From: Murdochiella vaginalis
Lineage (GTDB): Bacteria; Bacillota; Clostridia; Tissierellales; Peptoniphilaceae
Assembly (NCBI RefSeq): GCF_900119705.1
Contig: NZ_LT632322.1
Coordinates: 1,550,001 to 1,614,000 of the forward strand
Direction of reading: 5' to 3'
Length of the DNA: 64,000 nucleotides
The notes under the pieces were generated by a model. It was not told where the DNA came from, did not search any database, and saw only the letters and a program-made list of their open reading frames with translations. Position numbers and translations under genes: made by a program. Positions 8,448 through 18,791 of the stretch are shown here, one piece after another; positions within the stretch are counted from its first letter, which is position 1, and every line of letters starts with the position of its first letter.

Positions 8448-9002
8448 ATGAACAAAACACAGTCCTATTCTTCTTTGCTATCGGCCAGAACCATGGCCCG
8501 TCAAGGCATCATTGCCGCCGTCTATGTGATTTTCACGCTTTCCGGCTTCGGCTTCAGTTACGGACCGGTCCAATTCCGCTACGCGGAAGTCATGACGTGG
8601 CTTGCCTTTTTCGATCCCAAAAACGTCATCGGCTTAACGCTTGGTTGTCTGGTGGCAAATATCTGGAGCCCGTTCGGCGCAATCGACATGATTGTCGGCA
8701 CTCTGGGTACGTTGCTTTCGACGCTCTTGATGGCGAAAGTTTCCTCTAAATGGATTGCCTCGCTCTTTCCTGCGGCTTTTTCCTTTCTCTATAGCGGTGA
8801 GGCCTGGTTTTTAGGGGAAATCACAGGGGATCTGTTTCCCCTTGTAACCGCACAAATTATGCTCTCGCAATTCATCATCACGGCGATCATCGGGTTGCCG
8901 CTCTGGACCGTTTTATGGCGCAACAAGCTGGTTCGTGAAGCCTTAGCGGATCCGGTCCCGGCGCGTGACGACAAAAGTGGGCGCGGTAAAATAATCTCGT
9001 AA
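8448..9002 (+). CDS. queT: QueT-family queuosine precursor transporter
   Basis: A 184-residue membrane protein with about five hydrophobic segments and family sequences such as GPVQFRYAEVMTWLAFF and GLTLGCLVANIWSPFG. QueT proteins are substrate-specific S-components that work with a shared ECF energy module to import preQ0 or preQ1 for the modified tRNA base queuosine. The preQ1 riboswitch immediately upstream supports the function independently. AAGGAGG lies 7 bases before the ATG. The last 60 bp overlap, in antisense, the 3' end of the convergent ATP-grasp gene, so the C-terminal tail after about residue 164 is coded by DNA used on both strands. Confidence 0.9.
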   Translation: MNKTQSYSSLLSARTMARQGIIAAVYVIFTLSGFGFSYGPVQFRYAEVMTWLAFFDPKNVIGLTLGCLVANIWSPFGAIDMIVGTLGTLLSTLLMAKVSSKWIASLFPAAFSFLYSGEAWFLGEITGDLFPLVTAQIMLSQFIITAIIGLPLWTVLWRNKLVREALADPVPARDDKSGRGKIIS

Positions 9003-10409
9003 GCCCGAAATCATATTATGTTGCCCGATGCGCACATAGCAGCCCGCAAATTGCTCATCAAAGAGGAAACAGCCGAGCACATGGCCAAAAGGCTTCACCA
9101 CAAACGCTCCGGCGGTTTCCGGCGTTTCGGCATCCTTCAAGGCTTGGGCAAAGGAAACAGCTTTGGGGTCGTCGAGAGATCTAACAATGGGGAGCACTTC
9201 TTCGCCGTCCCCATTTGCCGCGTTGGGATCGTTTTGCAAGCAAAGGAAGGGAGTCGGGTCATTGTCCACAAACTCCTGTGCGATATATTGCGCATACGGC
9301 AGTGCATTCACTAACGTTTCCCATTCGTTCTGTGTATGATCCCGACCGATGACAACGCCCTGTGAACCGTACGAGTTATAGGGCTTGAGAATATAGGCAT
9401 CTTTCTTTTCGATCACCTCGGCTTTTTCTTCCGGCGTGGTGATTTCCCACGTCATAGGAATGCGCCGGGCAATGAATTCTCTTTCTTCCGGCGTTAACAA
9501 CGCCAGGGTCTCCTCTTTATGCAACATGGCAAAGGTGGTTTTGGCGTGCATCACTTGCGAACGGAAGGATCCGAAAGAGAGAAAGGCACCGGCACGATAC
9601 GCTTCTTCAAAGGCCTTCGCCTCTTTGCGCACGGCGAGAAAATCGGAGGTCACCAACCGGCGATACACCAGATCAATCGCGAGCGGCTCTCCCTTTTCAT
9701 CCTTTGCCCATAATTTACCGTCTGCAAAGCGTAAGTCGCGCACGTCGGCCACCACGGCGCGCACCCCGGCGGCAGCAAAACGGTCGCGATACACATCGAA
9801 CTCCATTCGCGTCCCTTTGTCCAAGACATCGACGATGGCGACACTTTTCGCCTCGCGTCCGCGAATTTTTCGATAGCGATCCAAAAAGACCGACACCAAG
9901 GAATCAAAAAGGGAAAAACGGGAAAGAGACCAATCCTTTTGCATGTCCTGCATAATCCGACTTTGCAAGAGCAGATCGCCCAAAACACGATCTTCATTCA
10001 TCGCGGAAGCGCCGTCCGTGTTCAACTCACAAAAACGGTAGTCTCCCCCGCCGCGATAAAAAATATCGTAGCGACCGACCGGAACGGGCATGTCATAGCC
10101 CGGATCCAATAAAATCAGTTCTTCCATCGCAGGATCGAAGTGAAATCCCTTGCGATACGCCGGATTTTTGACATATTCCGCCGTAACCTTCCGACCGATG
10201 GAGACCATCGTATGGATCATCTCCTGAAAGATTTCCACTTCTTGTGGCGTTAAAAACATGCCCTGATACGTCATGGGTACTTCCATGCCGTGGTAGAGTC
10301 GTCTTTTTTCAATACTCTCGCCAATCAAGGACTGCGCATCCTCGGCATAGCGATCGGGATGCGTCATGACCCGGCGAATATAGTCTTTGGTAAATTCAGG
10401 ATAAAACAT
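8943..10409 (-). CDS. Glutathionylspermidine synthase-like ATP-grasp ligase
   Basis: A 488-residue protein with the circularly permuted ATP-grasp layout of glutathionylspermidine-synthase-like ligases. The substrate-side motif DIFYRGGGDYRFCELNTDG lies near residues 115-135, the ATP-grasp lysine region DAYILKPYNSYGSQG near 345-360, and the C-terminal KPFGHVLGCF with the GCYVRIGQHN strand near 440-470. Family members join a carboxylate to an amine through an acyl phosphate. The gene overlaps the stop of the gamma-glutamylcysteine-ligase-like gene by 14 bp, so the two probably act in sequence, the second extending a gamma-glutamyl product. Whether the product is glutathione, a spermidine conjugate or another thiol is not shown. 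AGGAAG lies 7 bases upstream of the ATG. Confidence 0.8.
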   Translation of the reverse strand: MFYPEFTKDYIRRVMTHPDRYAEDAQSLIGESIEKRRLYHGMEVPMTYQGMFLTPQEVEIFQEMIHTMVSIGRKVTAEYVKNPAYRKGFHFDPAMEELILLDPGYDMPVPVGRYDIFYRGGGDYRFCELNTDGASAMNEDRVLGDLLLQSRIMQDMQKDWSLSRFSLFDSLVSVFLDRYRKIRGREAKSVAIVDVLDKGTRMEFDVYRDRFAAAGVRAVVADVRDLRFADGKLWAKDEKGEPLAIDLVYRRLVTSDFLAVRKEAKAFEEAYRAGAFLSFGSFRSQVMHAKTTFAMLHKEETLALLTPEEREFIARRIPMTWEITTPEEKAEVIEKKDAYILKPYNSYGSQGVVIGRDHTQNEWETLVNALPYAQYIAQEFVDNDPTPFLCLQNDPNAANGDGEEVLPIVRSLDDPKAVSFAQALKDAETPETAGAFVVKPFGHVLGCFLFDEQFAGCYVRIGQHNMISGLRDYFTAPTFVVTRRDRIR

Positions 10410-11721
10410 GACGCACTTCCTGCTTTCTCAATGCTGCAAGCCATCCTTCCTGCTCCACCGCACGTTCGATTTCTAAGCGCGGTGTATCGAGGTTGTCCCA
10501 CATTTTCTCCAACGGTGCCAGCAGCGCTGCCTCCGGTTCACTCAACCCTTCCCGTGCCATGGCGCAAAGTGTCGTTCCCCAATGCGCAAAATAATCCCCG
10601 TGATAATACGCTTGGATGCCGTTATCCCGGCCGGCATTTTTTCCTCGTTCCACCCAGTCCGCCTGCATCGGCGTGAAGCGCTCTTCCAAGCGATCCAGCG
10701 TGTCCGCATTATAAAGCAGTCCTTTGAGGAGCGCCATGGCGCCAAATGTATACGGTCCGGATACCGCATCCATCATGCGAATCTCCAAAACCTGCTTGGC
10801 GCGGACGTCCGGAAATACGATGGACATGCCGTGACGCACAAAACGGTCGAGTTCCTCTTCATCCCTCGCCTCATCCAGAAGGTCGCGTAACGGACGATTC
10901 CCGGTGGAGACAACCTTCCCGTCTTTCGGCAGGAAAATCAGGGGTGCGGAAAGCACCCAATCCGCATAGCTTTCGACTCCGAAATCCGGTGAGAATACAT
11001 CCGGGACAAAGCCGGTACGTGCCGGATCCGTACGCCTCCAAATTTCCTGGCGCGCGTTATACGACGTAATCCGTCTTCCCTCGTTCTCTGCGGCAGAATC
11101 AAAAAGTGTATACAGAATCGGAGAAAGGGCTGTTAAGACACGGTACTTCCTGCAAAAGTCCGCATCGCTTTCGATATCGAGAGAAACCTGAAGCGCGGCG
11201 CTTTTTCGCATCATGGTGCGCGCCAAATCCCCCGTATTGCGTAAATAGGCATCCATCATGTGATAACGGGACTTGGGCAGAAGCGGAATATCGTCCACCG
11301 CATTAAAGGGATCCAGACCAATGGCAACCAGCATATAACCCAGCGGATCCAAAATTTCATACATCGCATCCAGCATTTCCTGGTAGCGGCGTTGCAAAAT
11401 CAAAACCGATTCGGACGGTGCCAGGGAAAACTCCAGCTGCGCACCGGGTTCCAAGGTAATGCTGCTGCCGCATTTTTCCAAGGCGAGAAGATGCCCTTCT
11501 TCAAAGGTCGCAAGCCAATCCGGATGATGGTGCATAAAGGCTTGTAAAATGCCTTCTACGCCGAGTTCTCCCGGATACATCACGCGCTTTCCGCTTTGCC
11601 GGTCAAACACAAAATGTTCCATCTCCGGTCCGACTTGCCAATGTTTGCGCGCCGTATATCCGCCTCGAATCACGTCGGTTATGCACCGTATTTTTTCTTT
11701 TTCTGTCAGCCGTTTTTCCAT
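10396..11721 (-). CDS. Glutamate-cysteine ligase family protein (GCS2-like)
   Basis: A 441-residue protein of the glutamate-cysteine ligase GCS2/EgtA superfamily. The motif GPEMEHFVFD near residue 31 carries the metal-binding Glu residues, and GAQLEFSLAPSE gives the second acidic strand. Later blocks are SLDIESDADF, SYNARQEIWRR with DPARTG, and VLEIRMMDA. The expected reaction joins L-glutamate to the amine of cysteine (or another amino acid) using ATP. The chosen ATG has GGCGGAG upstream; an ATG 15 codons earlier lacks a site. It is the first gene of a two-gene operon with an ATP-grasp ligase. The true acceptor amino acid is unproven. Confidence 0.82.
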   Translation of the reverse strand: MEKRLTEKEKIRCITDVIRGGYTARKHWQVGPEMEHFVFDRQSGKRVMYPGELGVEGILQAFMHHHPDWLATFEEGHLLALEKCGSSITLEPGAQLEFSLAPSESVLILQRRYQEMLDAMYEILDPLGYMLVAIGLDPFNAVDDIPLLPKSRYHMMDAYLRNTGDLARTMMRKSAALQVSLDIESDADFCRKYRVLTALSPILYTLFDSAAENEGRRITSYNARQEIWRRTDPARTGFVPDVFSPDFGVESYADWVLSAPLIFLPKDGKVVSTGNRPLRDLLDEARDEEELDRFVRHGMSIVFPDVRAKQVLEIRMMDAVSGPYTFGAMALLKGLLYNADTLDRLEERFTPMQADWVERGKNAGRDNGIQAYYHGDYFAHWGTTLCAMAREGLSEPEAALLAPLEKMWDNLDTPRLEIERAVEQEGWLAALRKQEVRHVLS

Positions 11722-11862
11722 ATCTCCGCCTTTCCCGGTTGCTGCGATGTTCCCTGCTCTTCGCATTTTTAGATCCCCGGTGTCTTGTTCGGCCGGTTCT
11801 TTCTGTCTTTTTCATCCGTGTGGGGTATAATCGAAGGGAAATTGCCACGAAAGGAGCTCTTC

Positions 11863-13382: not shown

Positions 13383-14276
13383 TTAATGAACTATGCCATT
13401 AAAATAGTCTTCAAACAGACGCAAGGCATAGGAAGAGGTGTTTCTTTTATACGTGACCATTGCCGTTTGTGTTTTATATATTGGGCGAAGAGGAATGCTG
13501 ACGAGGTCTTTCCGCAAATATGATCGTGCTACACCGGAAGATAAAAATGTAATGCCTATGTTAGCCCGCACCATTCCCAATAGGCTATCTATATCCGGAC
13601 AAGTACAGACGATCTTCGGCGACCGGTGCATATTTGAAAAAATGTCATTCATCTGCATGCGAATGCTCGTCTTGTTGTCAAGCCCAATAACCGGTATGTC
13701 ACTGAGGTCATCCATAGTCAAATATGCCTTACTACCAACACGGGAACGACGAGCGGCTACTACAGCAATCGTATCTTCAAAATAAGGTATGATATTAAGG
13801 CGTGGATCTGGCTCATTGTCTTTAGAAAAATAAACGTTTGTAACCGCCGCATCCAACTCCTGCGTTTTTACCCTCGTAATTAATTCCGAACTCCAGCCAA
13901 TCTGAATCTCAATTTGAATATTGGGGTAATGTTGACGAAAACCCATGATATATTCAGGAATATTGAGATGAGACAATGTACTGAGAAGCCCTACGGATAG
14001 ACTACTGCGTATTTCGCGACGGCGAAGCTCCACAATTCTTCCCAATTCGTCCATTTCTCGCAATACAGACTGTGCCCGCTCAACAAATTCTTTTCCGACC
14101 TCTGTGAGGTCGACCTTTCTTGTAGTTCGTTCAAAAAGCTTTACGCCGATCTCATTTTCTAATGCGCTAATCTGTTGTGATAGTGCTGGTTGCGTAATAT
14201 AAAGTTGGTTTGCGGCCTTGGAGTAATTCGCAGTCTCCGCTAACTTCACCGCATATCGAAGCTGAGATAACTCCAT
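13383..14276 (-). CDS. LysR-family transcriptional regulator
   Basis: A 297-residue LysR protein. The N-terminal winged helix-turn-helix carries YSKAANQLYITQPALSQQISALE and FERTTRKVDLTEVG; a linker helix follows, and the remainder is a periplasmic-binding-protein-like effector domain. It is transcribed divergently from the EPSP-synthase-like gene across a 130-bp gap that holds palindromes, the usual arrangement for a LysR protein that controls its neighbour in response to a pathway metabolite. The effector may be the substrate carried by the TRAP system downstream, but this is inference. Confidence 0.9.
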   Translation of the reverse strand: MELSQLRYAVKLAETANYSKAANQLYITQPALSQQISALENEIGVKLFERTTRKVDLTEVGKEFVERAQSVLREMDELGRIVELRRREIRSSLSVGLLSTLSHLNIPEYIMGFRQHYPNIQIEIQIGWSSELITRVKTQELDAAVTNVYFSKDNEPDPRLNIIPYFEDTIAVVAARRSRVGSKAYLTMDDLSDIPVIGLDNKTSIRMQMNDIFSNMHRSPKIVCTCPDIDSLLGMVRANIGITFLSSGVARSYLRKDLVSIPLRPIYKTQTAMVTYKRNTSSYALRLFEDYFNGIVH

Positions 14277-14350
14277 AAAAACGCCCCTTTCCTATAAGCT
14301 TCTCTTATAAGTTTATTATAGATAGTTATTTCACGTAACTCAACCCCTTT

Positions 14351-14406: not shown

Positions 14407-15717
14407 ATGTATTACATGATTAAACCTACCTCGCGTCTAAATGGTGAGGTGCATATTCCCGGCTCCAAAAGTCAGACTGCTCGCGGTCTCATTTTGGGAA
14501 CTCTTGCCGAGGGAACCAGTCACGTTTTGAATCCGATGTTGAGCCTCGATAGCTATGATATTGCGGAGTGTTGCCGCCGTCTGGGTGCTACGGTAGATAC
14601 CTCGAATGATAACGATTGGGTAATTACCAGCCCCGGCCTTAATGGACTGCATATTCCTTCCAGTGTATTGGATGTCGGAAATTCCGGTACGGGCTACTAT
14701 TTTTTAACGACACTTGCTGCTATGCTCCACGGAAAGAGCGTCGTCACCGGTGATTATCAAATTGCCTATCGCCCCATTGCCCCACTCCTGAATGCCATTC
14801 GTGAAATGGGCGGAAAAGCGATTTCTACGCGGGACAATGAGTTAGCGCCCCTCATTATAGAAGGTCCTATTGAAGGTGGGCACACGGTCCATTTGAACGG
14901 TAAAAATGTGCAATGGGGCATTGGTCTCATGGTATGCTGCCCAGCGCTTAAAGATACCACGACTATCGTCTACGACGGGGTCCTTGGTGAGCGCCCTTAT
15001 GCAAATCTAACTATGGACTGGATGGAGGCTGCCGGGGTTCATCTTGAAAATCACGATTATAAAAAATTCGTCATTCCCGGAAATCAACAGTATCGTCCTT
15101 TCACTAAGCGTACTGCCTGTGACTGGTGTTCCGCCAGTTATCCCATGGTTGCTGCTGCCATCATGAAGGAAAAATGTCGCATTAAGTTGCATGGCATGGA
15201 CATCCATGACTTTATGGGTGAGCGTCATTTTGTGGACTGGATTAACCAAATGGGCGGCCATGTAGAAGTTCTTAACGAAGGCAAGGATGGGATCATTGTT
15301 GAGGGTGGGCATACTTTGCACGGTATCGAAATTGATTGTGGCGATACTCCAGATGCCGTGCCCGCTCTGGCTGTTCTCGGCTGCTATGCACAAGGCAAAA
15401 TGAAACTTTATAATGTCGCAGCCAGCCGAATGAAAGAAACGGATCGAACGAAAACTATCGCCGGCGAGTTACGCAAAATGGGAGCGAAAATTGATGAAGA
15501 AGAAGACAGCATTACGATCTACCACTCTCCTCTTCATGGTGCTACCATCGACGGCCATCAGGATCATCGCATCGTCATGGCAACTTCCTGCGCTGCGCTT
15601 GGCGCAGAGGGACATAGCTTTATTGATTCGGTCTCGCATGTTGGGGTTTCTTTCCCGCGCTTCTATGAGGAAATGAAAGGTATTGGCGCCAACATCTTGC
15701 GTTTGGCTGAAAAGTAA
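14407..15717 (+). CDS. EPSP synthase (AroA)-family enolpyruvyl transferase with altered substrate pocket
   Basis: A 436-residue protein with the two-domain fold signature of 5-enolpyruvylshikimate-3-phosphate synthase. From memory of E. coli AroA, it keeps Lys22-Ser23 and Arg27 (PGSKSQTAR), the GNSGT loop, Arg124 (YRPI), Gln171, Tyr200, Asp313 (TPDA), Lys340-Glu341 and Arg344 (MKETDR) and Arg386 (QDHRIVM). It differs at all three serines that hold the shikimate phosphate: Ser169 and Ser170 become Asn-Val (NVQ) and Ser197 becomes Glu (GERPY). Asn26, Arg100, Asn336 and Lys411 are also changed. PEP chemistry therefore looks feasible, but shikimate 3-phosphate is an unlikely acceptor. No other aromatic-pathway gene is nearby. 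It heads a cluster with a TAXI-TRAP transporter. GAAGGAG lies 10 bases before the ATG. Confidence 0.75.
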   Translation: MYYMIKPTSRLNGEVHIPGSKSQTARGLILGTLAEGTSHVLNPMLSLDSYDIAECCRRLGATVDTSNDNDWVITSPGLNGLHIPSSVLDVGNSGTGYYFLTTLAAMLHGKSVVTGDYQIAYRPIAPLLNAIREMGGKAISTRDNELAPLIIEGPIEGGHTVHLNGKNVQWGIGLMVCCPALKDTTTIVYDGVLGERPYANLTMDWMEAAGVHLENHDYKKFVIPGNQQYRPFTKRTACDWCSASYPMVAAAIMKEKCRIKLHGMDIHDFMGERHFVDWINQMGGHVEVLNEGKDGIIVEGGHTLHGIEIDCGDTPDAVPALAVLGCYAQGKMKLYNVAASRMKETDRTKTIAGELRKMGAKIDEEEDSITIYHSPLHGATIDGHQDHRIVMATSCAALGAEGHSFIDSVSHVGVSFPRFYEEMKGIGANILRLAEK

Positions 15718-15777
15718 AGGTAGTTTGGAAAGCTTCACACGTTGTAAAAGGGATAGAAACTTTTAAGGAGGAAAAAC

Positions 15778-16827
15778 ATGAAAAAGATCGTCGGAATTTT
15801 GCTTGCGGTCGCTATCATTTGCAGCTTGGCTGCCTGCGGCAAAGGTCAAGCACCAGCTCCTGCGGATAGCACCTCCGGTGCAGAGAGCGTCTCAACTGCG
15901 GATAGCTCTACGTCCAAGCGTACAGGAGAACTGCGCATCACAATCGGTACCGCCGGTACTGCCGGTGCTTTGTATCCCATGGGTGTGGCGATGGCAGAAA
16001 CGATTACCAAACACGTAGACGGCATCTCGGCAACTGGTGAATCCACCGCAGCCTCCATCGAAAACTTGCGAAATCTCCATGAAGGCAAAATGGCTATGGG
16101 CATCTCTATGAGCGAAATTTGCTCCTATGCCTACCACGGCGTGAGCGACTATGAAGGTAGCGCCTATACGGATATTCGGGCGATGTTCTCTACCATCAAT
16201 AACTATCTACAAGTCTTCACGTTGAAAGACAGCGGTATCAAATCCATTGCGGATCTGAAGGGTAAAACTGTCAGCATGGGCGCCGCAGGTAGCGGCGGGG
16301 AAATGGCCGGTCGATTACTTCTTGGTGTCTACGGCCTGGATTACAACACGATCAAGGCACAATTTATGGGTGAGTCCGATGGCGCAGCTGCTCTCAAAGA
16401 TCATAAAATTGACGCTATGATCGCCACGCATCCTCTGAACTCGGCTGCGCTTACGGAACTCACCACTTCCTGTGATGCAATACTGTTGCCCGTTGACAAC
16501 GATGAATTCTATAAAACCTATCCCGCCTATGCTCGTTGCACCGTACCTGCGGGGACGTATCCTAACAATGACAAGGACGTAATCATTCCACAGAACAGTG
16601 TCATTATGTGCACCTCTCTCAACAGTGGTCTGACGGATGACGATGTTTATGAAATCACCAAAGCCATCTGGGAAAATCGTGATGAATGGGCATCCAGCGC
16701 CAAGAGCGTAGAAAAACAAGCTGTCTGGGACTCCATTCTGAAGAATATCGATATTCCACTGCATCCCGGTGTTATTCGTTACTTTGAAGAAAAAGGAGTG
16801 ACGATACCGGATGGTTTAAAGGGCTAA
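15778..16827 (+). CDS. TAXI-family TRAP transporter solute-binding lipoprotein
   Basis: A 349-residue exported lipoprotein. The signal peptide ends in the lipobox LAAC with the modified Cys at residue 19, followed by a Ser/Ala-rich linker. The mature domain opens with ITIGTAGTAGALYPMGVAMAE, the signature of TAXI (TRAP-associated extracytoplasmic immunogenic) binding proteins. These capture small carboxylates and deliver them to a fused TRAP permease, driven by an ion gradient. TAAGGAGG precedes the ATG. It lies 60 bp after the EPSP-synthase-like gene and before the permease, so all three are probably one transcription unit. The ligand is unknown. Confidence 0.92.
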   Translation: MKKIVGILLAVAIICSLAACGKGQAPAPADSTSGAESVSTADSSTSKRTGELRITIGTAGTAGALYPMGVAMAETITKHVDGISATGESTAASIENLRNLHEGKMAMGISMSEICSYAYHGVSDYEGSAYTDIRAMFSTINNYLQVFTLKDSGIKSIADLKGKTVSMGAAGSGGEMAGRLLLGVYGLDYNTIKAQFMGESDGAAALKDHKIDAMIATHPLNSAALTELTTSCDAILLPVDNDEFYKTYPAYARCTVPAGTYPNNDKDVIIPQNSVIMCTSLNSGLTDDDVYEITKAIWENRDEWASSAKSVEKQAVWDSILKNIDIPLHPGVIRYFEEKGVTIPDGLKG

Positions 16828-16840
16828 AAAACAACCGGAA

Positions 16841-16868
16841 GGGCCGGGGTATACCCCCGGCCCTTTTT
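16841..16868 (+). terminator. Intercistronic hairpin between TRAP binding protein and permease
   Basis: GGGCCGGGG pairs with CCCCGGCCC around a short TATAC-type loop, followed by TTTTT. Standing between two genes of one system, it probably acts as a partial terminator or 3'-end stabiliser that gives more binding protein than permease. Confidence 0.8.
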
Positions 16869-16889
16869 CACATGAACTGAGGTAATACG

Positions 16890-18791
16890 ATGAACGAAAA
16901 ACAAAGTTCAAAAAAAAAGAATATACTGGACGTGATCCTTGCTATCGTGTGCCTTGCAGCGGCGATCTTTCATATTTTTATTTCCTGGAATACCTCTATA
17001 AGCATTATTCAACAACGAGTATTTCACGTTTTTGTAATGATTCTTATTTTCTTCCTTATGAAATGCTCTGCCTCTACAAAAGCGGAAAAGAAATTCTCTG
17101 CCACAATCTACGGCGTCTGTTCCCTATTATCGATAGTCTCCGGATGCTATTTTCTCCTGCGCACAAACCTGGATGTGATGTTAAAGCGAAGCATTCGAGG
17201 CGCTTCGGATATAGAGATTCTCTTTGGAGTTCTTTTAATTATTTGTGTCATGTATTTGGCTTGGCGAACAGTGGGTTGGGCCCTTTCCATTCTTAGCGCT
17301 ATTTTTCTACTATATGCTATTGCCGGACCATACATGCCGGATATTATCTCTCACCGAGGCTACACGATTCCCTATATTACAAATTATGTTTCTTGGACAA
17401 GCGAATCCATTTTTGGAACTTGCGTTAGTGCCTGCGTTTCTTTTGTTGCGCTATACATTATATTTGGCGAACTGTTAGATAAATTCGGTGCCGGCCAGTT
17501 CTTTATTGATATCGCTTATGCGCTTACCGGTCGCATGAAAGGAGGCCCGGCCGAAGCAGCCGTAGTGTCCAGCGCACTGATGGGTTCTATCAATGGCAGC
17601 GCCGTAGCCAATGTTGTTACCACCGGAACCTTTACGATTCCTTTAATGAAAAAAGTGGGATACCGGCCTGAATTTGCGGGTGCTGTAGAAGCGGTCGCTT
17701 CAACCGGAGGACAGATCCTTCCTCCCGTTATGGGAGCAGCGGCTTTTGTTATGGCCGATTTAACAGGTATTCCCTATTCAACCATCATCATTGCTGCTAT
17801 CGTACCCGGTATCCTCTACTATTTAAGTCTTGGTATATCGGTCTATCTGGAAGCGGATAAACGCGGACTGGAAGCAGAACTCCCGGAAAACTTACCGCAG
17901 ATTAAACAGGTCCTCAAAGAAGGTTGGTACTACGGATTACCTATTATTACCTTAATTGTCGCTTTACTTGGATTTAACCTCTCCGCTAACTATTCCGCTC
18001 TGTTCAGCATTGGCGTGCTGCTTGTCATCGGCTTTGGAAAAGAGTGGTTTAGGAATCGACGTCTTCCCTTCCGCGAAGTGTTCGAAGCCCTTGTCAAAGC
18101 CTCTAAAACCACCGTTTCGGTAACGATCGCCTGTGCTTGTGCGGGAATTGTGATTGGTATCGTCTCTATGACCGGCATCGGAATCAAGTTTACAAGTATC
18201 GTATTTCAGCTCTCCGGCGGCAATATTATTCTCATGCTCCTCTTGGTCATGCTGGCCTGCATTGTCATGGGCATGGGGCTTCCCAGCACCGCCGCTTATA
18301 TTATTGCTGCTACCGTCGGCGTTCCTACACTGGTCGCTGCCGGAATTTCAACGCTTGCTGCTAATCTATTTGTATTCTACTTTGCTATCATGTCGTTTAT
18401 CACGCCACCGGTTGCTGTTGCGGCCTATGCCGCTGCCGGTTTAGCGGATACAAGCGCCAGCAAGACCGGTTGGCAAGCATTTATGCTGGGAATGCCCGGC
18501 TTTATCATCCCGTTCGTTTATGTTTTTAATCCGGCATTACTCATTGTGGATACATCGACGATTGACACGCTTTACATTGTAGTGCTAGCAACATTCGGTG
18601 TAATTCTCACCTCCATTGCCGTAATTGGCTGGTTTAAAGGGAAGTTACATCCAATAATCCGGCTCCTCATCGCCATCAGTGCCATCCTCATGTTTGTCAG
18701 TGGAACGATCTATGATATTATCGGGGTCGTAATGGGAGTTGCAATTATGGGCTATCTTTTGGTCACCAGAAAAAAGCGCGTTGCTGCATAA
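16890..18791 (+). CDS. TRAP transporter fused permease (DctQM, TAXI-associated)
   Basis: A 633-residue integral membrane protein uniting the small (four-segment) and large (about twelve-segment) TRAP permease subunits. The large-subunit part begins near residue 190 and carries GGPAEAAVVSSALMGSINGSAVANVVTTG and ILPPVMGAAAFVMA, and later GMGLPSTAAYII and FITPPVAVAAYAAAG, all standard in TAXI-type fused permeases. It lies 62 bp after the binding protein, beyond an intercistronic hairpin, with TGAGGT as ribosome binding site. It should import, with an ion gradient, the solute captured by the lipoprotein. C-terminal segments after residue 560 are additional membrane helices. Confidence 0.92.
   Translation: MNEKQSSKKKNILDVILAIVCLAAAIFHIFISWNTSISIIQQRVFHVFVMILIFFLMKCSASTKAEKKFSATIYGVCSLLSIVSGCYFLLRTNLDVMLKRSIRGASDIEILFGVLLIICVMYLAWRTVGWALSILSAIFLLYAIAGPYMPDIISHRGYTIPYITNYVSWTSESIFGTCVSACVSFVALYIIFGELLDKFGAGQFFIDIAYALTGRMKGGPAEAAVVSSALMGSINGSAVANVVTTGTFTIPLMKKVGYRPEFAGAVEAVASTGGQILPPVMGAAAFVMADLTGIPYSTIIIAAIVPGILYYLSLGISVYLEADKRGLEAELPENLPQIKQVLKEGWYYGLPIITLIVALLGFNLSANYSALFSIGVLLVIGFGKEWFRNRRLPFREVFEALVKASKTTVSVTIACACAGIVIGIVSMTGIGIKFTSIVFQLSGGNIILMLLLVMLACIVMGMGLPSTAAYIIAATVGVPTLVAAGISTLAANLFVFYFAIMSFITPPVAVAAYAAAGLADTSASKTGWQAFMLGMPGFIIPFVYVFNPALLIVDTSTIDTLYIVVLATFGVILTSIAVIGWFKGKLHPIIRLLIAISAILMFVSGTIYDIIGVVMGVAIMGYLLVTRKKRVAA

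Follow-up and report, generated by a model that had tools for sequence, protein, structure and literature searches.

The window analysed here, 64,000 nucleotides of the Murdochiella vaginalis genome (contig NZ_LT632322.1, positions 1,550,001 to 1,614,000), carries a homologue of AroA, the 5-enolpyruvylshikimate 3-phosphate (EPSP) synthase, that lies beside a regulator gene and an importer of its own. The protein belongs to a distinct clade of AroA homologues, here called clade T, whose genes are joined to transporters of several kinds. With a probability of roughly 0.55, we take the clade-T enzymes to be enolpyruvyl transferases, or to run the reverse reaction, on an imported and probably unphosphorylated ring acid. 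A full-text literature search listed no account of such a clade.

Importer genes lie within 4.5 kb of the enzyme gene at 22 of 24 clade-T loci, compared with 2 of 62 other loci of the E197-type AroA class, the next relatives, which have glutamate in place of E. coli Ser197. Clusters for aromatic synthesis show the opposite distribution: aro, pheA or tyrA-type clusters lie within the same distance at 46 of the 62 loci and at none of the 24 (those counted were aroC, aroB, aroD/E, aroK, an AroH-kind chorismate mutase, and prephenate dehydratase (PDT) or dehydrogenase (PDH); the type II chorismate-mutase cluster CM_2 stands outside this count). Fisher's test gives 4e-16 for the importer counts, a figure that is descriptive and not a probability, since the loci are related. 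The loci are a capped sample, drawn from the best 80 of 546 matches in a named-genome scan (first subfamily alignment) plus those from another search, leaving aside same-locus duplicates (L046, L047, L049, L052, L053, L055, L058) and one cut-off gene (L057; 48% identical, with N169, W172 and an adjoining TAXI gene). Neighbours were labelled by BLAST clustering, unclustered genes being uncounted. The assignments to aro, PDT and PDH were made by eye, Pfam support for AroC, AroB and AroE being limited to the genomes searched for pathway families; for importers, IclR and chorismate mutase, individual members were checked against Pfam or NCBIfam.

The importers of clade T are of three kinds, TAXI-TRAP at 15 loci, Liv-type ABC at 4 and NMT1-type ABC at 3. 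The two remaining loci are L112, which starts at a contig edge, and L111, for which 10 kb upstream and 1.8 kb downstream are available; the two E197-type loci with a counted importer (L051 and L138) both have TctCBA. The importer label needs at least five changes on the tree (23 labelled rows and five states, including ‘none seen’, with the two TctCBA loci included), so the enzyme has been joined by different importers. Nor is gene order constant: in L106 the TAXI and TRAP genes lie upstream of the enzyme gene. The regulator is of the LysR family at 8 of the 24 loci and of the IclR family at 10.

The window genome (1,671,491 bases; completeness 99.84%) contains no detectable AroB, AroE, AroK, AroC or prephenate dehydratase and no other AroA. 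Both it and the M. massiliensis genome gave zero matches to PF01264, PF01202, PF08501, PF01761 and PF00800, a search that did not extend to AroD or 3-deoxy-D-arabino-heptulosonate 7-phosphate synthase. These five families were searched in 14 genomes, 11 of them with a clade-T gene; in 14 control genomes three of the families were found in 14/14, SKI in 12/14 and dehydroquinate synthase in 11/14. On the families searched, the window enzyme does not work between an AroK and an AroC of the same genome and cannot feed chorismate synthesis there. The lack of a second aroA, which had been put forward as a point against a new role, does not refute one, because aroB, aroE, aroK, aroC and PDT are absent too. 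AroC, AroB and PDT are all missing from the same 5 of 11 clade-T genomes (the window genome G000, M. massiliensis G003, G177, G247 and G328). AroE was not found in these five or in G300, and shikimate kinase was not found in four of the five, the fifth (G247) having a single match, weak at 23.6 bits and barely above the cut-off. The loss of the pathway, together with an importer arrangement common to distant bacteria, suggests that the enzyme probably works on an acid from outside the cell. Elsewhere in the window genome, outside the window, lies an orphan type II chorismate mutase (L204:9314-9685; C1 949313-949684) whose catalytic residues appear by eye to be intact; it adjoins genes for CstA-like and CitMHS-like transporters and is seen in two Murdochiella genomes, both of them without a hit for AroC or PDT.

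The family and fold of the window protein are those of EPSP synthases. It matches PF00275 at 302.9 bits and passes the aroA model TIGR01356 (349.9 bits against a cut-off of 287.25), whereas it fails the MurA model TIGR01072 (81.7 against 392.7). The predicted model (mean predicted local distance difference test score 95.7) has the EPSP synthase fold, and a structure search places EPSP synthases nearest, those bound to shikimate 3-phosphate (S3P) first (Z about 51, root-mean-square deviation (rmsd) 1.7-1.8 over 421 residues); the rmsd to the apo Klebsiella enzyme is 3.0 and the Z score against MurA about 40. Aligned with E. coli AroA, the protein keeps K22, S23, R27, N94, G96, R124, Q171, Y200, D313, K340, E341, R344, H385 and R386. 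Among these are the positions that we take to be catalytic or to bind phosphoenolpyruvate (PEP) (K22, R124, Q171, D313, E341, R344, H385 and R386), and S23/R27, presumably the carboxylate-binding pair. The 3-phosphate site, S169, S170 and S197 in E. coli, is occupied by N, V and E, and the protein further has A26, F101, A336 and V411. Every residue that the first-pass annotation listed as kept or lost is borne out by the alignment.

The use that was made of this list needs correction. In 59 E197-type AroA proteins, E197, I26, S170 and V or I at 411 are invariant (V in 52), as is S244; position 336 is Q or H in 57, position 169 is T or S in 58 (N in 1/59), and position 172 is Y or F. Most of the best 80 of the 546 relatives belong to this class, at 38-43% identity. 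In 7 of 12 Clostridia genomes, chosen out of 21 matching genomes, nothing but the E197-type protein passes the aroA cut-off (a second AroA-like match in one of these seven is split and falls below it), and the other five have two. Because of this, and because 46/62 loci lie near aro clusters, the E197-type proteins are most likely working EPSP synthases. E197 and V411, being found in the AroA of aro operons, are thus compatible with S3P and PEP, and S197E, K411V and the changes at 26 and 336 do not in themselves make a case against an EPSP synthase, since the aro-operon class is changed at the same positions. In the form first argued, the claim that the changes at S197, N26, N336 and K411 signal a new acceptor is thus unsupported. 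E. coli AroA was accordingly rejected as the sole yardstick for a new acceptor, the E197-type class having most of the same changes.

What separates clade T from its relatives is a smaller set of residues. W172 is present in 24/24 clade-T proteins and 0/59 of the E197-type class, N169 in 24/24 and 1/59, and A336 in 21/24 and 0/59 (the exceptions being S in the frame-broken L106, S in L111 and P in L114). Position 26 is A or T in all 23 readable clade-T proteins, against I in 59/59, and position 244 is C, E or G in 24/24, against S in 59/59; L051, outside clade T, also has E at 244 by eye, as in part of the clade. In a 66-protein tree, where 21 of its 24 members are represented, clade T has support of 100/100. 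L106 and L114, whose matched ranges contain stops, are absent from the trees, together with L112, a number of duplicates and the majority of the ordinary AroA rows; the E197 class was thinned, and the second tree, that of 66 proteins, also lacks n_L059 and c_L071. The catalytic and PEP residues are kept in every readable member (L106 is frame-broken and L112 truncated). V170 is confined, within the sample, to a nine-member subclade (the window protein and L099-L106) found in Murdochiella and in metagenome-assembled genomes (MAGs) of Oscillospiraceae or other Clostridia; this subclade also has K168, a residue seen in 7/59 of the E197-type class.

Another member of Murdochiella (G001) has an ordinary AroA (L059). 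Because the window subclade nests among Oscillospiraceae while G001 has the ordinary enzyme, the phylogeny suggests that the operon moved into Murdochiella by transfer. Among 391 genomes of the window's own class, 22 including its own matched at E <= 1e-70, and the 21 others have E197-type proteins, none of clade T. Plasmid matches numbered 80 records, all below 60% identity (31-34% among the 15 matches listed).

The same residues bear on the proposal that the window protein is an ordinary E197-class EPSP synthase, retained for salvage of imported shikimate. The TIGR01356 score, the presence of E197 and V411 in the AroA of aro operons, the retention of S23, R27, Y200, D313 and K340, and the occurrence of A in place of S170 in three other AroA-like proteins (L060, L061, L067) are all in keeping with it. 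However, the window genome has no match to shikimate kinase or chorismate synthase, and positions 26, 169, 170, 172 and 336 differ from the E197 class. Moreover, an AroA-like protein that by its residues is outside the E197 class is also present in at least four of the six AroC-bearing clade-T genomes (G222, G270, G300 and G408; G148 and G240 have a further PF00275 match). Shikimate salvage is thus decidedly improbable. A protein that has lost catalysis and serves as a ligand sensor or a binding partner of the transporter would suit the importer at 22/24 loci and the LysR or IclR regulator at 18/24, but the acid-base and PEP residues are kept in clade T and the window gene is under purifying selection (dN 0.0185, dS 0.81 against M. 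massiliensis), so that very little weight can be given to such a role.

Enolpyruvyl transfer is probable for the window enzyme because it keeps its PEP site, its acid-base residues and the S23/R27 pair that binds the carboxylate, and an acceptor without a 3-phosphate is probable because the old 3-phosphate site is altered (N169, V170, W172); the frequent presence of importers beside clade-T genes suggests that this acid is taken up from outside. In the operon of the window, the LysR-type regulator would sense a small acid and switch on transcription; the TAXI-TRAP system would import that acid, and the former EPSP synthase, made alongside, would act on it. The enzyme would pass an enolpyruvyl group between PEP and a hydroxyl on the ring of that acid, or run backwards and release PEP. 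The acceptor would probably be a hydroaromatic or aromatic acid. The first-pass interpretation is thus supported in part: a role outside chorismate synthesis in this genome, a link to uptake and a changed acceptor pocket are all upheld, though the residue list, which compared the protein with E. coli AroA alone, does not bear them out in the way argued. The grounds now available differ from the original ones and are stronger.

A catabolic direction, in which phosphate and an imported enolpyruvyl ether such as a chorismate-like acid yield PEP and the acid, is a special case of the same explanation. The combination of regulator, importer and single enzyme has a catabolic look, the PEP-side residues are kept and Murdochiella has the orphan chorismate mutase. 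Against this, the operon has no further catabolic gene, the EPSP synthase equilibrium favours the forward direction, and we know of no common nutrients among free enolpyruvyl ethers; the catabolic direction is therefore unlikely.

In four clade-T loci a type II chorismate-mutase open reading frame (ORF) begins 3-12 bases after the enzyme gene (L108:7168-7476, L109:11281-11562, L112:1173-1469, L127:8266-8631), and three of the four also have an NMT1-type ABC transporter and a DUF362 gene. Tentatively, clade T may carry out an enolpyruvyl transfer so far undescribed, in which PEP is the donor and an imported hydroaromatic acid that bears no phosphate is the acceptor, or the reverse of that reaction. 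In the lineage of these four loci, enolpyruvyl transfer to the free 3-hydroxyl could yield an allyl vinyl ether, and rearrangement of this ether by the mutase would give a prephenate-like acid without any need for shikimate kinase or chorismate synthase. In another clade-T locus, from a Desulfobacteraceae MAG, a UbiD-family decarboxylase gene (L113:8008-9579) lies 39 bases upstream of the enzyme gene.

Several observations weigh against a role on an imported unphosphorylated acid. The chorismate-mutase ORFs speak for a link to aromatic or chorismate-like chemistry, AroC is present in 6 of the 11 clade-T genomes, where a role in aromatic synthesis is possible, and NCBIfam scores the window protein as AroA. 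In the window subclade K168 and R198 might still hold an anionic group on the acceptor, and clade T has further fixed differences, at 249, 348, 391 and 412, that are unexplained. The importer kinds counted were picked after inspection of the clade-T or transporter-linked loci; an ABC-ATPase cluster beside two E197-type loci (L141 and L174) lies outside the importer count, and a permease-like ORF is seen by eye in L056. Finally, genes that lie together need not serve a common substrate, and the loci, being related, do not count as independent.

The features of the locus are collected in Table 1. The neighbours are, as had been annotated, a LysR regulator and a complete TAXI-TRAP system, both transporter proteins scoring above their cut-offs. 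The gaps are 60 bases from the enzyme gene to the TAXI gene and 62 bases from there to the permease gene. The LysR protein reached no NCBIfam cut-off among the 25 models listed, of 55. The palindrome in the divergent intergenic region is present in L099 too, and an adjacent block is kept in L099, L100 and L102. An Rfam scan of the window gave no matches at the gathering threshold. A promoter scan was at shuffle level (11 found, shuffle mean 10.4) and a terminator scan gave 10, against 5.4 in shuffles (standard deviation 2.4); neither result is used here. Elsewhere in the window, at 8943-11766, a GCS2 (glutamate-cysteine-ligase-like) gene adjoins one for a circularly permuted ATP-grasp protein, and the two could form a gamma-glutamyl peptide pathway.

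Table 1. Features of the clade-T locus, in window coordinates
Feature	Position	Strand	Basis and remarks
LysR-family regulator, divergent from enzyme gene	13383..14276	-	ORF list and NCBIfam scan
Palindrome TATAAG-N5-CTTATA, candidate LysR-type operator	14293..14309	.	Divergent intergenic region; putative function
Clade-T EPSP-synthase homologue, 436 aa	14407..15717	+	ORF list, family profiles, alignment, predicted model
N167-V168-Q169-W170 codons (= E. coli S169-S170-Q171-F172)	14905..14916	+	Alignment; N and W are clade-T marks, V is of the window subclade only
E195 codon (= E. coli S197)	14989..14991	+	Alignment; common to E197-type AroA class of aro operons
A339 codon (= E. coli N336)	15421..15423	+	Alignment; Q/H in 57/59 E197-type AroA
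TAXI-family TRAP solute-binding lipoprotein	15778..16827	+	TIGR02122, 260.9 bits (cut-off 84.35); lipobox by eye
Fused TRAP permease	16890..18791	+	TIGR02123, 626.9 bits (cut-off 320.65)

Few natural enolpyruvyl acceptors are known to us: S3P, UDP-N-acetylglucosamine and a few antibiotic precursors. AroA homologues that persist without a shikimate pathway, and whose genes sit with importers of different kinds, suggest that host-associated and sediment bacteria put enolpyruvyl chemistry to a use not yet recognised. Because the window protein passes the naming model for aroA, anyone predicting aromatic amino acid synthesis or glyphosate sensitivity from that name would be misled. The substrate could be reached directly through the solute-binding proteins.

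With E. coli AroA (1g6s) the window protein shares the fold (Z 51.4, rmsd 1.8 over 421 residues), the catalytic and most PEP residues, and S23/R27; it differs in the three phosphate serines, in a genome without the searched pathway genes and in the importer and regulator that adjoin its gene. NikO, an enolpyruvyl transferase with another acceptor, gives a weak match (4fqd; 26.5 bits over 62 residues, no stretch passing alone). MurA is alike in superfamily and enolpyruvyl chemistry, but is set apart by the failed model score and by the lower Z of about 40, against about 51 for EPSP synthases. One paper reports a liverwort MurA that makes EPSP (PMC11588093), and another describes classes of EPSP synthase (PMC9145961). 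The E197-type AroA proteins, from Acetivibrio and from MAGs of Spirochaetes, Planctomycetota and Omnitrophota, resemble the window protein in E197, V/I411 and N94-S95-G96-T97, but have I26, T/S169, S170, Y/F172, S244, mostly Q336, and aro-cluster neighbours.

A quick tree joins clade T, with support 87, to a small sister group made up of L056 and the two TctCBA-linked loci. One genome, G177, has both a TctCBA-linked AroA-like copy and a clade-T copy. At L056:802-5906, the AroA homologue that groups with the TctCBA-linked set has P169, E197 and G336 and is surrounded by AroE and AroC (Pfam) and by AroD and a TIM-barrel protein (by eye). The TctCBA-linked loci themselves (L051:8576-9865, L138:3904-5196) are like clade T in having an AroA homologue beside an importer, with no counted aro cluster within 4.5 kb; they are unlike it in their importer family, in F or L at 169, in I26 and in their place outside clade T.

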